Assembly (NCBI GenBank): GCA_035529315.1
Contig: DATKWZ010000034.1
Location: 1 to 64,000, forward strand
DNA length: 64,000 nt
Source: Anaerolineae bacterium
Lineage (GTDB): Bacteria; Desulfobacterota; Desulfobacteria; Desulfobacterales; ETH-SRB1
Reading direction: 5' to 3'
In this document: in pieces, positions 56,963-62,360 of the stretch
How the letters are laid out: each line of letters begins with the position of its first letter
Numbering within the stretch: the stretch's first letter is position 1
Notes under the pieces: generated by a model
Told to the model about the DNA's origin: nothing
The model's input: the letters and a program-made list of their open reading frames with translations, nothing else
The model's database searches: none
Program-made: the position numbers and the translations under genes

Positions 56963-57535
56963 ATGAAAAATATTTTCGGGGATAATTCAGATCAGGATTT
57001 GATCAAAGCTGTCGGCAACGGAGATCATCAGGCATTTGAGCACATAGTAGATCGATATAAGAATGCTCTATATAATTTCGTCTATAGATACCTTCAGGAC
57101 CGTTCCCTAGCGGAAGAGGTGGTTCAGGAGGTTTTTCTGAGAATTTATAAGGCAGCCCCGAAATATAAACCCGCAAACAATGCAAAAGCATCAACCTGGA
57201 TATTTAAAATAGCTTTTAACCTTTCCATGAACGAGTTAAAAGCTCGCAGGCGTTACTCGCGTTTGACAGTGGATCGTGCCGGTGAAAGAGAAATACCTGC
57301 CGGGATGCAGGTTCCCGTGTTTGCGGAAACACGGGAAATGATGGAAGGCATTATGTCAGGCCTGCGTCTGCTTCCAGAGAATCAGAGATCTGCTTTGCTT
57401 TTACGAGTGCAGCAAGGATTTTCTTACCGGGAAATCAGCGAAATTTTAAACGCCACTGTCTCAAGCGTTGAATCTTTGATTTACAGGGCGCGTCAGCATC
57501 TGAAACAGCATGTCTGCATGGAACATAAGGAGTAA
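56963..57535 (+). CDS. ECF (RpoE-like) RNA polymerase sigma factor
   Basis: A 190-residue group IV sigma factor. Region 2 (~20-90) has YNFVYRYLQDRSLAEEVVQEVFLRI and STWIFKIAFNL; region 4 (~125-185) has LLPENQRSALLLRVQQGFSYREI and SSVESLIYRARQHL. It is followed by an anti-sigma factor and a membrane-anchored sensor, so it probably responds to an envelope signal. A near-palindromic hairpin (56902-56924) precedes it. Confidence 0.92.
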   Translation: MKNIFGDNSDQDLIKAVGNGDHQAFEHIVDRYKNALYNFVYRYLQDRSLAEEVVQEVFLRIYKAAPKYKPANNAKASTWIFKIAFNLSMNELKARRRYSRLTVDRAGEREIPAGMQVPVFAETREMMEGIMSGLRLLPENQRSALLLRVQQGFSYREISEILNATVSSVESLIYRARQHLKQHVCMEHKE

Positions 57536-57539
57536 TATT

Positions 57540-57947
57540 TTGAATTGCCAAGAAATCAGAGAAAAAATTTCCTCTTATATGGATAATGAGCTTGATTCAG
57601 AGCAATCCAGATGCGTGGACCAAGAGCTTTTACGCTGCCCTGTGTGCAGAGAAGAATTAAAGCTCTTGCAGCAGGTGGATGCAGCTGTCAAAGAGATGCC
57701 GTCTTGCAGCCCGTCAGCCCAATTTCCCGCACGACTTATGCAGCAGATTGCAAAACAAGCAGCTTTGCCTGAAAGATATGGTTTTACATATAATATATTT
57801 GTACATCCTGTTAAGTTCTTTGAAAAATTTTATAACCTTTTTAATTCACAAAGGGTTTCAACAACTGCCACGCTTGATGAGCTTGGTGATTTTCCGCCTT
57901 GCTCTATTAGTTATATTTATTTCAAACTCCTTGCCACAAAACCATGA
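57540..57947 (+). CDS. Anti-sigma factor with degenerate zinc-finger (zf-HC2-like)
   Basis: 135 residues from a TTG start at 57540 preceded by AAGGAG, four bases after the sigma stop. The N-terminal LNCQEIREKISSYMDNELD matches zinc-binding anti-sigma domains, with RCPVCREEL further on. The His of the usual HxxxCxxC motif is replaced (QELLRCPVC). No clear membrane helix is visible, so it may act in the cytoplasm. It presumably binds the adjacent ECF sigma. Confidence 0.8.
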   Translation: MNCQEIREKISSYMDNELDSEQSRCVDQELLRCPVCREELKLLQQVDAAVKEMPSCSPSAQFPARLMQQIAKQAALPERYGFTYNIFVHPVKFFEKFYNLFNSQRVSTTATLDELGDFPPCSISYIYFKLLATKP

Positions 57948-57956
57948 GGTTAAACC

Positions 57957-58424
57957 ATGCCTATTTTATATTTTGTCTTTGGATCTTTTACCGCAATTAT
58001 TATAATGACTACTATTTTGGCTGTTATCTATTTTGGTTTGAAGAAGAAAGAAGCAGCACAGATGAATATAAGGGGATATCTGGACTTGATCCCTGACCTT
58101 ACAGAAACGCAACGCAGCCGGGTTGAATTAATTCGCAGCAGTTTTTTGCCCAGTGTGGAAGAACTTAGAAAGGGTCTTTGTATTAAAAGGACAAAGCTGG
58201 CAGATCTTCTGTTTGCCGAATCAATTGACAGATCAAAAATAAATAATATTGCCGAAGAGATACTGCGGCACCAGTCAGAATTGGAAAAAGAGGTTATTGA
58301 TCATATTTTAGAGGAAAAGGAGCTCCTTTCGCCATTGCAACAGAGAAGGTTTTACAAAATAATTGTTGATCAGTTTTCATCCGGCAGCCTGGGAGTTCAT
58401 GATGTAAAGGGCAGGAAAGCTTAA
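57957..58424 (+). CDS. Membrane-anchored periplasmic sensor, CnrX/ZraP/Spy-like
   Basis: 155 residues: one N-terminal membrane helix (~4-28), then a helical periplasmic hairpin (~45-145) with LTETQRSRVELIRSSF and LEEKELLSPLQQRRFYKII, the pattern of heavy-metal sensor/chaperone proteins. It has no His-rich or Met-rich metal cluster. The order sigma, anti-sigma, sensor resembles cnr-type modules. GAGG precedes the ATG. Confidence 0.78.
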   Translation: MPILYFVFGSFTAIIIMTTILAVIYFGLKKKEAAQMNIRGYLDLIPDLTETQRSRVELIRSSFLPSVEELRKGLCIKRTKLADLLFAESIDRSKINNIAEEILRHQSELEKEVIDHILEEKELLSPLQQRRFYKIIVDQFSSGSLGVHDVKGRKA

Positions 58425-58486: not shown

Positions 58487-59551
58487 TTATTTTCTCAACC
58501 GTTTTGAAACCTCTTTTGTCAAATAAAGCACCTTTATTGCCTGTTCTATGTTCAGTGAACCTGTTCCGCAACTCGGAGTTATAAGGGACTGGGCCAGTAT
58601 TTGCGACCTGTCAATGCCGAGCAGCTCTATTTGAGCGGCTTTATCCTCCCATTTTGATACCAGTGAATCGGTTGTTTCTCTGTCAATATCTTCAGAATTT
58701 GAGGTCGGCACAATCCCCCATGCCAGGATCCGGCCTGAATCCATAAACCTCTTAATCTGCTCAGAGTAAAGGATGAACCTGTCAAAAAAGGAATAAGCAT
58801 CAAAACTGACAATATCTGCGGAAGATTCCAGAACCAGCGACCAGTCGGAGTTTGCGCAGACATGTATTCCAACAAGGCCGCCTTCGGAGTGTACTGCTTC
58901 AAAGGTTTCTTCAAAGCATTTTAAAACCTCATCACGTGATATGCTGATAAATGCAGATGAGCCGAATCCGGCAATGCCGGGCTCATCGAAAAAAATCATC
59001 ACCGGACATTTGAATTGAGAAAGCTGTCTGACCTGCCATTTGCTTTTCATGGCCAATAGTTTTACGGCAGCATCCCTTATCTGGTGGTCATAAAAAACAG
59101 CTCTTCCATTTTGGTCGTTTACACCTGTGCAAAATGTTATTGGGCCTGTGATTTGCCCTTTGACTGCAATCAAAGGCTTGGAAAGCGTTCTGGTTTGTTT
59201 TATTAATTCAAAAAAACCTGCGGCTGCATCGGTTGTAAGGGCGAATCGTGACGATGAAAGATCGGCCAGGCCTTCACTTACAGCCATATAATCTTCGTAG
59301 AATGAAACAATTTCATCGTCAAAACTATTGCCGGCAGTGTCTATAAATGATTTGTCATTTTCAATGGTTAGACCGGGCATTCCAGGCAGAAATTGAGCCA
59401 GCATGCCTTCCTTTTTAAAAACAGGTAGTTGAACCCATAATGGTATTTCAGGTGTATATTTATAAACAAGTTTTATAGCTTCAGCGTGGTTGTCTATCGG
59501 AAGGCTTCCTATTAAAACCGGAAGACAGTTTGCCTGAAAGTTTTTGGTCAT
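58487..59551 (-). CDS. MetE-core / UroD-fold methyltransferase-like protein
   Basis: 354 residues resembling only the C-terminal catalytic half of cobalamin-independent methionine synthase. The zinc motif appears as IHVC (His230, Cys232) and TPSCGTGSL (Cys328); IGSLP, GPITF and FFDEPGI are also shared. The Glu ligand of MetE is not evident; Asp251 is near its expected place. Folate-independent core-MetE enzymes are known in anaerobes, so methyl transfer to homocysteine from a corrinoid protein is possible (inference). Its ATG overlaps the radical SAM stop by four bases. Confidence 0.75.
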   Translation of the reverse strand: MTKNFQANCLPVLIGSLPIDNHAEAIKLVYKYTPEIPLWVQLPVFKKEGMLAQFLPGMPGLTIENDKSFIDTAGNSFDDEIVSFYEDYMAVSEGLADLSSSRFALTTDAAAGFFELIKQTRTLSKPLIAVKGQITGPITFCTGVNDQNGRAVFYDHQIRDAAVKLLAMKSKWQVRQLSQFKCPVMIFFDEPGIAGFGSSAFISISRDEVLKCFEETFEAVHSEGGLVGIHVCANSDWSLVLESSADIVSFDAYSFFDRFILYSEQIKRFMDSGRILAWGIVPTSNSEDIDRETTDSLVSKWEDKAAQIELLGIDRSQILAQSLITPSCGTGSLNIEQAIKVLYLTKEVSKRLRK

Positions 59552-61446
59552 TGTCTTTGTTCCTTTATTACTCTGATGGCAAGGCTTAAGTATCTATTAT
59601 TTTCTTCGTATATCAACCTTTTACTTCTCATCATCTTTAAAAATTTTATAATCCTGTCTTCATCTATCTGCGGGAAACAGGCTATAATACGCCTTAGCGA
59701 ACGGTTGGTCCGGCAAAAAAGGTAGATATCTCTGTAGATTCCGTTTACACGATGCGTCAGCGGATCCGCTCCCGGGCGTTTTTGACGGATGATCAAAAAA
59801 TCGCCTCCATCACGAAAGCTGAGAATCGGTGAACATGAAAGACCGCTGTGAAGCAGGGCATATGATTTTTTCCAGGCTTTTACCTTTTGCTTAACAGGTT
59901 CCCACAATTTTTTCTGATATACACGGTCCATCCTGAAAGACTGTATCATAAAACTAATTGATTGAAAAACATCCGGTGGAAATAATGCGGCATAGTTGGG
60001 GTGGTTAAAAACCGTTGTAAGGCCGGAGGCGTGCCGATTTTCCCAGACAGGGCTTCCAAGGCCGAGCCAGAAGTTAACGGCCCTTAATGGGTGAAAAGGA
60101 AATGCAAAATCAAGGGCGTGCAAGGTTTCCTTTACATCGGTTATATCGCTTCCGGGAAAGCAAAGAATCAGGTTTGATATGTCGTCAATGCCTAATTCCT
60201 CGCAATGTTTCATTACTTCCAGATTCTGGATGCAGGTAGTCCCTTTATTAAGCTTTTTGAGAAGCCGGGTGCTTAATGCCTCTATCCCTATCTGTACCTC
60301 TTCAACACCTGCCAGGCGCATGGCTTTTAACACCTCACATGACGTGTTCGCCCGTATCTCTGCAAACAGGCGCAAATCTTTGCCCAGTTTATGAAGTCGT
60401 AAAAATATCTCCTTGCTTTCCCTAAGCGGAATCAGATTATCCATGAAGGCGACAGACAGGGTTTTATATTTTTTTGTCAAAGAATCAATTTCAGAGACAA
60501 CCTGCTCAGGGCTCTTTTTTCTGTAGCTGTTCCACTGAAGGTTAAGATTGCAAAAAGCACAGCCTTTTTGTTTACCCGATTTTCTTATGGATTTCCACCA
60601 GCAGCCTCTGGAAATTTCGGCACACAGAGTCGGAAAAAAGGTTTTATCCGGCCTAAATGTTTTAAGCAAATCAAAGTAATCATCATAATCAGGCAGGGGC
60701 AATGAGGTTAGATCCTTTATTTGATTAAATGAAACATCACCGATTATATCGGAGCCGTTTCTTGATACAAGTCCGGGAATAGAAGGTCTTTTACTTTTGA
60801 CGTCAGATTTCATTAAATAACGGATTAATCCGGCCACAGGCAGTTCCCCTTCGCCGCTAACCGCATAGTCTATCTCGCTGAATGCCTCAAGCAGCTGATA
60901 GATAGTATCTCCGGCAAATACCGAGCCGCCCGTTACTATAGGAAGATTCGGAAAGCTTTTTTTTATTTTTCTGATAAAATAAAGGGAGGAGGTGAGTTGA
61001 CAAAAACAGATTGAAAAACCAGCTAAGCCGAATTTGCCCCAGTCTATAGCCTTTATCATATTGTCGGATGCTTCTTTGACCCCGGCTGTGAGCGCATCAA
61101 AGTCGGTTTTTTGAAGCACTTTATTGTTTTTTGCCTCGCGATAAAAAACCTTTTTAATTTCATTAATCCGTTCGGGAAATAACAGTGCCGCATATATTGA
61201 TTCCGCAGGCCATGTCCTTTCCGAAATTTCATGATAAAGTTTATAGCCGATTCTTTCCGCTACCTTTAAATACAGGTGAAGCGCCTTTATTTGCAATTTC
61301 GGAAACGTGGATTTCAAATAGGCTTTTAATGCTCCAAGCTGAATCGATGGCCGGCTATAAAGTGGCCATGGAGTAGAGACTAAAACAACAGGTTTCAAGC
61401 AGTCGGCCATAGATGATTTTGTCCCGCAGGGCATTATTTTTTTCAT
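59548..61446 (-). CDS. B12-binding-type radical SAM protein (RiPP-maturase-like)
   Basis: 632 residues. An N-terminal Rossmann-type B12-binding-like domain (~18-240, without DxHxxG) is followed by a radical SAM domain (~270-480). The cluster motif is atypical: RGCWW, 13 residues, then CAFCNLNLQW (C-x13-C-x2-C). GGSVFAGD and YAVSGEGELPVAGL fit the family. The RGCWW...CxFCxLN pattern resembles RiPP-maturation radical SAM proteins, but no precursor gene is visible. It overlaps both neighbours by four bases. Confidence 0.8.
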   Translation of the reverse strand: MKKIMPCGTKSSMADCLKPVVLVSTPWPLYSRPSIQLGALKAYLKSTFPKLQIKALHLYLKVAERIGYKLYHEISERTWPAESIYAALLFPERINEIKKVFYREAKNNKVLQKTDFDALTAGVKEASDNMIKAIDWGKFGLAGFSICFCQLTSSLYFIRKIKKSFPNLPIVTGGSVFAGDTIYQLLEAFSEIDYAVSGEGELPVAGLIRYLMKSDVKSKRPSIPGLVSRNGSDIIGDVSFNQIKDLTSLPLPDYDDYFDLLKTFRPDKTFFPTLCAEISRGCWWKSIRKSGKQKGCAFCNLNLQWNSYRKKSPEQVVSEIDSLTKKYKTLSVAFMDNLIPLRESKEIFLRLHKLGKDLRLFAEIRANTSCEVLKAMRLAGVEEVQIGIEALSTRLLKKLNKGTTCIQNLEVMKHCEELGIDDISNLILCFPGSDITDVKETLHALDFAFPFHPLRAVNFWLGLGSPVWENRHASGLTTVFNHPNYAALFPPDVFQSISFMIQSFRMDRVYQKKLWEPVKQKVKAWKKSYALLHSGLSCSPILSFRDGGDFLIIRQKRPGADPLTHRVNGIYRDIYLFCRTNRSLRRIIACFPQIDEDRIIKFLKMMRSKRLIYEENNRYLSLAIRVIKEQRQ

Positions 61447-62360
61447 TTATCCTGGCATGGTTCTATGTGGATGGTAACATCCTTAATGCCATGGATATTT
61501 TCCTTGATTTTATCTTCGACTAAATGAGCTATCTTATGCGCCTTGTCTAAAGATATATGGCGCTTGATATGGCAATGCATATCAACGTGGATATATCCCT
61601 GCCAACCCCGGCTTCTTATTTTATGGCAATATTCAATGCCGTTTATAGCCATGGCTATGGACCTTATCTGTTCTTTATCCACAGCCGCTGCATCGACTAA
61701 TATTTTAAAGCTTGTCTTAAGGATACTAATCCCTGCGCAGGCGATAAATATACTGATTAAACATGCTATTGCAGGATCGACGATAGGATATCCCGCCCGA
61801 ATGACTAAAAGGCCGATTATTACGGAAGAGGTCGTAAAAATATCTGCCGTGGTGTGGAGTGAGTCGGATATCAATATTTGACTTTGGAGCAAGCGGCCTT
61901 GATTGCGCTCATATAGCATAACCACAATATTAATCAGCAGGGTAATCCCCATGACCAAGAAGCTTGTAGTGTCAATTTCAGGCTGAACAGGATGCAGGAA
62001 GCGTTTTATCGATTGGTTCAGAACATTGAAACAGACCAGAAAAAGGAGCAGAGCAATGCCTGTTGAGCTCAGGCTCTCATACTTGGCATGACCGTAAGGA
62101 TGGCGTTCGTCTCTGGGTCTGGAGGCCATCCATATGCCGAACAAGCCGATAATGTTGGATGAACCGTCAGAGAATGAATGATAGCCATCTGCCATGATGC
62201 TGGCGCTATTCGTCAGCCAACCATAAAAAAGCTTGGCAGCTGCAACGCCAAAGTTCAGGATCAAGACAATCCATAAGACCCTGCTGATCCGGCGAAACCT
62301 GTCTTGTTCTGTAATATGTTCCATTCTTATGGTTGAATACTCCCGGCCCTGCTGTGGCAT
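61443..62360 (-). CDS. Cation diffusion facilitator (CDF) family transporter
   Basis: A 305-residue inner-membrane antiporter exporting divalent metal (Zn, Fe or Mn). Six membrane segments; metal sites in ADGYHSFSDGSSN (TM2) and SDSLHTTADIFTT (TM5). The C-terminal cytoplasmic domain (~215-300) has His-rich MHCHIKRHISLDKAH. An ATG 12 codons downstream (62324) is an alternative start. First gene of the leftward operon with the radical SAM and MetE-core genes. Confidence 0.88.
   Translation of the reverse strand: MPQQGREYSTIRMEHITEQDRFRRISRVLWIVLILNFGVAAAKLFYGWLTNSASIMADGYHSFSDGSSNIIGLFGIWMASRPRDERHPYGHAKYESLSSTGIALLLFLVCFNVLNQSIKRFLHPVQPEIDTTSFLVMGITLLINIVVMLYERNQGRLLQSQILISDSLHTTADIFTTSSVIIGLLVIRAGYPIVDPAIACLISIFIACAGISILKTSFKILVDAAAVDKEQIRSIAMAINGIEYCHKIRSRGWQGYIHVDMHCHIKRHISLDKAHKIAHLVEDKIKENIHGIKDVTIHIEPCQDK

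Follow-up and report, generated by a model that had tools for sequence, protein, structure and literature searches.

The window, the whole 64,000-nucleotide stretch that was analysed, is part of contig C34 in a genome of 2.2 Mb; among named organisms, Candidatus Desulfaltia and other Desulfobacterales are closest to it. As first described, it carries three minus-strand open reading frames encoding a CDF transporter, a B12-type radical SAM protein and a MetE-core protein. The genes and their features are as follows:

61443..62360, minus strand: CDF-family cation efflux transporter, 305 aa (PF01545, PF16916, TIGR01297)
59548..61446, minus strand: B12-binding radical SAM protein of a TIGR03975-like orphan clade, 632 aa with the listed start (TIGR03975 score, start-site comparison, model)
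60826..61116, minus strand: B12-binding-like domain of the radical SAM protein, residues 111-207 (PF02310 with E=2.3e-4, below the Pfam gathering score; Foldseek matches to cobalamin radical SAM enzymes)
60550..60603, minus strand: cluster motif C282-x13-C296-x2-C299, a loop of variable length flanked by constant GCWW and GC[AST]FC (sequence, alignment, loop lengths)
59563..59841, minus strand: C-terminal PqqD/RRE-like domain of the radical SAM protein, residues 536-628 (hhalign to the PqqD profile; model)
58487..59551, minus strand: putative core methionine synthase of the MesB type, 354 aa (zinc ligands and spacings, Foldseek, phyletic profile)
58856..58864, minus strand: predicted MesB zinc ligands H230 and C232 (HVC), invariant in 23 aligned sequences
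58799..58801, minus strand: predicted MesB zinc ligand D251, invariant, an Asp replacing MetE Glu665 as in characterised MesB
58568..58570, minus strand: predicted MesB zinc ligand C328, invariant

The initial annotation held that all three genes overlap by four bases, and ATGA is indeed found at both the CDF/radical SAM and the radical SAM/MetE-core junctions of the window genome. The second overlap is genuine and partly conserved: of the five congeners possessing both genes, three show the same 4 nt as the window, and the remaining two have small, different spacings. The first is probably not genuine, and the true start of the radical SAM gene would lie 12 codons later, because this is where congeners begin it. 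Indeed, a comparison of start regions within the genus showed that the upstream ATG is absent from several congeners and that every congener compared retains the ATG at residue 13 (codon 61408-61410); in the predicted model, moreover, confidence is lowest over residues 1-15. A start at residue 13 puts about 32 nt between the CDF stop and the radical SAM gene, and three relatives have a called gap of 30-34 nt, a fourth one of 6 nt. Overlaps of 4 nt are common in bacterial operons and are weak evidence of a common function. Co-transcription of the trio is plausible, and we infer a single transcript.

The radical SAM protein scores 366.6 bits against TIGR03975 (cut-off 281.85) over the full-length profile, positions 1-606. 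An order-wide search with this profile gave two score groups, of approximately 487-637 and 283-385 bits, with the window protein in the lower one. Alignment and tree split the two groups with a support of 99/97, long branches being present. Judged on sequence, the window protein thus belongs to a separate clade that sits beside TIGR03975 and is not a canonical member. This orphan clade was found in 36 of the 297 sampled Desulfobacterota genomes, where it is scattered and nearly always single-copy. A 3107-aa radical SAM fusion in another genome (G010) was discarded, as it resulted from masked sequence read as X.

The cysteine motif had been noted as C-x13-C-x2-C rather than CxxxCxxC. While the spacing is unusual, CxxxCxxC was the wrong yardstick, since the nearest characterised relatives have C-x7-C-x2-C, as reported for the enzymes of polytheonamide and bottromycin biosynthesis (PMC5682303). 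This latter motif is absent from the window protein. The orphan clade shares with PoyC and the TIGR03975 peptide C-methyltransferases (PMC5682303) the B12-binding and radical SAM domains, a motif of the CWW...C-x2-C type, one full-length profile and a similar C-terminal domain. It differs from them by its lower score group, by an identity of 26-30% with canonical members, by the lack of any RiPP context found, and by the loop between the first two cysteines, which spans 4 to 25 residues (mode 13) with the GCWW and GC[AST]FC flanks kept, compared with 7 residues in the four canonical members measured.

The predicted model of the radical SAM protein has a pLDDT of 89.6, and Foldseek matched it to OxsB, TokK, TsrM, MgmA and CysS. 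A Pfam scan of the C-terminal domain alone returned no family, and profile-profile comparison was needed. With hhalign, the C-terminal 93 residues matched PqqD at 82% with the clade and at 93% with canonical members added, the profile being shallow; none of the 27 control slices taken from elsewhere exceeded 1.7%. In the model this domain consists of three strands, three helices and two strands. PqqD-like domains bind peptides in RiPP systems. Because the C-terminus resembles PqqD, a peptide-recognition fold, we propose that the substrate is a peptide or a protein. If the enzyme follows the methylase chemistry of its family, one SAM would methylate cob(I)alamin, a second SAM would give the 5'-deoxyadenosyl radical, and the methyl acceptor would be an unactivated carbon in the peptide or protein that the PqqD-like domain holds.

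One alternative is that the protein is a normal RiPP C-methyltransferase whose nearby precursor peptide was missed. Its score above the TIGR03975 cut-off and its PqqD/RRE-like C-terminal domain are what such an enzyme would show. The initial annotation had also suggested looking for small precursor ORFs in relatives. The search was negative: neither a conserved small ORF of at least 30 aa nor a recurrent partner was detected near the 64 loci inspected in 48 genera. In this sample, every neighbour family is limited to eight genera at most, the most frequent neighbours are generic signalling genes or reflect shared synteny in a few deep lineages, and the genes beside the radical SAM gene change from genus to genus. 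Thus, we regard a missed nearby precursor as unlikely. This test separates the two clades poorly, because canonical-motif members in the same order are also without an evident RiPP precursor or partner.

At eight loci (L226, L231, L238, L239, L242, L243, L244 and L248), a protein with C-terminal TPRs is encoded directly downstream of the radical SAM gene; these belong to five deep-branching Desulfobacterota genera, and the protein carries an invariant FHE-x-MKLKEN motif. It was rejected as a partner of the radical SAM protein: the window genome and nearly all relatives are without a clear match to it, and it is frequent in genomes that lack the radical SAM gene.

For the orphan clade, the substrate would rather be encoded elsewhere, away from the locus. 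MgmA and Mmp10 C-methylate methyl-coenzyme M reductase. Like the orphan clade, they are stand-alone B12 radical SAM enzymes, they act on a conserved cellular protein, and MgmA is among the fold matches; they are only distantly related to the Desulfobacterota clade. By comparison, it is possible, and we propose it tentatively, that the target of C-methylation by the orphan clade is a conserved protein of the cell or an unlinked peptide, a modification that would be new to sulfate reducers. If so, it would be a post-translational modification not yet known in these organisms, as that of methyl-coenzyme M reductase is for MgmA and Mmp10. The clade owes its RiPP family name to its score and looks functionally different, and the TIGR03975 database name may mislead RiPP genome mining. 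Its substrate is a testable question and, the clade being widespread, the one part of this locus worth following.

The MetE-core protein had been described as lacking the folate-binding half of MetE. The predicted model (pLDDT 91.9) bears this out: the 354 residues form the catalytic barrel only, without the N-terminal half, and match the MetE barrel. Foldseek placed MetE structures with zinc and homocysteine on top, followed by UroD-type and methanogen methyltransferases. Among NCBIfam profiles it weakly matches PRK00957, and no strong match emerged when the protein and its alignment were compared with Pfam and with PDB sequences. In the alignment of 23 sequences, H230, C232, D251 and C328 are invariant, and S16 and D189 fit the homocysteine-binding Ser and Asp positions. 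The spacing of the zinc ligands is 2/19/77, compared with 2/19/76 for Dehalococcoides mccartyi MesB, 2/22/61 for MetE and MesA, and 2/19/89 for MesC, as calculated from published positions; characterised MesB likewise has Asp where MetE has Glu665.

MesB is a folate-independent methionine synthase whose presumed methyl donor is CoFeSP, the corrinoid protein of the Wood-Ljungdahl pathway (PMC7857596, PMC7005905). The window protein has in common with the MesB/core-MetE of D. mccartyi (PMC7005905, PMC7857596) a length of about 350 aa, a catalytic barrel only and the HxC...D...C zinc set at near-identical spacing; its gene differs in adjoining radical SAM and CDF genes and not acs or SAM-cycle genes. 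Comparing residues with published positions, rather than by direct alignment, we find its assignment to MesB well supported and its activity predictable from it. As several sulfate-reducing genera had already been assigned MesB as their only methionine synthase by Price et al. (2021; PMC7857596), the window MesB is a further member of a described type. It would hold zinc via H230, C232, D251 and C328, activate homocysteine and take a methyl group from the CoFeSP corrinoid to form methionine. The initial annotation had suggested complementation of methionine auxotrophs; core-MetE is reported not to complement metE-minus E. coli (PMC7005905), and the window protein would be expected to behave likewise.

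The genomic context is consistent with this assignment. Like other MesB proteins, the window protein is found with CoFeSP: AcsC and AcsD are encoded on another contig of the window genome (G000:C16), and MTHFR, AcsD, ACS/CODH, AcsC and an AcsE-like methyltransferase lie in one Wood-Ljungdahl run. A search of the window genome found no MetH activation domain, MetE catalytic domain or homocysteine S-methyltransferase domain (PF02965, PF01717, PF02574), and MesB is probably the only methionine synthase of this organism. In relatives with a completeness of at least 90%, MesB and CoFeSP co-occur (37 with both, 2 with MesB only, 3 with CoFeSP only, 6 with neither; p=1.7e-4, and p=2.9e-5 at a completeness of at least 95%) and genomes without MesB tend to carry MetE or MetH-like genes (p=1.2e-3), p-values that treat genomes as independent and ignore shared ancestry. 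The exceptions are two genomes with mesB and no strong CoFeSP match (G011 and G042) and three with CoFeSP and no mesB; assembly gaps may explain some of them. The assignment accounts for methionine synthesis in a lineage without MetE or MetH.

Could the protein instead be a MesB paralogue working with another corrinoid protein or thiol acceptor, and not a methionine synthase? Some genomes do carry two or three homologues, and Price et al. noted that the function may not be the same in distant homologues of MesB (PMC7857596). We consider this improbable for the window protein, which is encoded in single copy in a genome where no other methionine synthase was found and has a complete zinc residue set, in a group of genomes where MetE and MetH-like genes tend to occur where MesB is absent.

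Other MesB-like genes and mesB neighbours were also observed. In G007 (C40:13477-18387, L293:1478-6388), a full-length MetE, a protein with a homocysteine S-methyltransferase domain and a second MesB-like paralogue, whose set is HCC...D...C, lie in a run; the same run is present on G001:C94, where the paralogue looks truncated. A conserved 78 aa protein without Pfam match is encoded downstream of mesB in two genera (L008:9268-9504 and relatives). In many relatives, mesB is followed by genes for a MoxR ATPase and a VWA protein, which were set aside as they have no evident link to methionine.

The third protein matches both CDF domains above cut-off (Cation_efflux PF01545, 5.8e-49; ZT_dimer PF16916, 9.5e-20) as well as TIGR01297 (241.7 bits, also above cut-off), and would be an ordinary cation exporter. 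It had been proposed to handle zinc or another metal for a pathway formed with the two enzymes, and this is not supported: adjacency is its sole evident tie to either of them.

The initial annotation also proposed that the genes form an undescribed methyl-transfer or corrinoid-dependent pathway. That both enzymes are corrinoid-dependent methyl-transfer enzymes agrees with our predictions. Gene-neighbourhood conservation is restricted: among the genomes of relatives compared, the three genes are adjacent in one genus only, Candidatus Desulfaltia, in six of its seven genomes (one on a cut contig). MetE-core homologues are present in 48 of the 58 relatives and close radical SAM orthologues in 24, and neither predicts the other (22 with both, 2 with radical SAM only, 26 with MetE-core only, 8 with neither; Fisher p=0.17). 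In 16 Desulfobacterales genomes of other genera with both enzymes, these lie on separate contigs among different neighbours, and mesB and the radical SAM gene were never side by side in the flanks inspected outside the genus. Unlinked genes in relatives are an outcome that the initial annotation had itself named as refuting its pathway. The congener G006 has no mesB, and its radical SAM gene lies beside a gene resembling those of cation:proton antiporters; it has MetE and a MetH-like gene, and no strong CoFeSP match. This is an apparent exchange of methionine synthase type in which the radical SAM gene stays, and the MesB assignment thereby adds a natural case of replacement within one genus. 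A single undescribed corrinoid pathway, in which the radical SAM and MetE-core proteins feed one into the other, in either direction, and the CDF protein supplies or removes metal, is therefore very improbable despite the gene order held in most genomes of the genus, the tight spacing and the corrinoid link of both enzymes, given the unlinked genes elsewhere, the non-significant co-occurrence, G006, and a MesB that is already described (PMC7857596, PMC7005905) and has a likely partner in CoFeSP.

Altogether, we consider it highly probable that the three genes form a run at the level of one genus and do separable jobs, as a MesB of known type, an orphan peptide or protein methylase and an exporter, which need not share a pathway. 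Two corrinoid enzymes independent of each other would have become neighbours, together with an exporter, in one genus. Their adjacency in six of seven genomes could point to a function specific to Candidatus Desulfaltia and, as a suggestion only, the arrangement may let a SAM consumer and a methionine producer be co-expressed.

Beyond the trio, genes for an ECF sigma factor, a zinc-finger anti-sigma factor and a ZraP-like metal-resistance protein lie in a row at positions 56963-58424 of the window. This row is convergent with mesB and is retained in several congeners.
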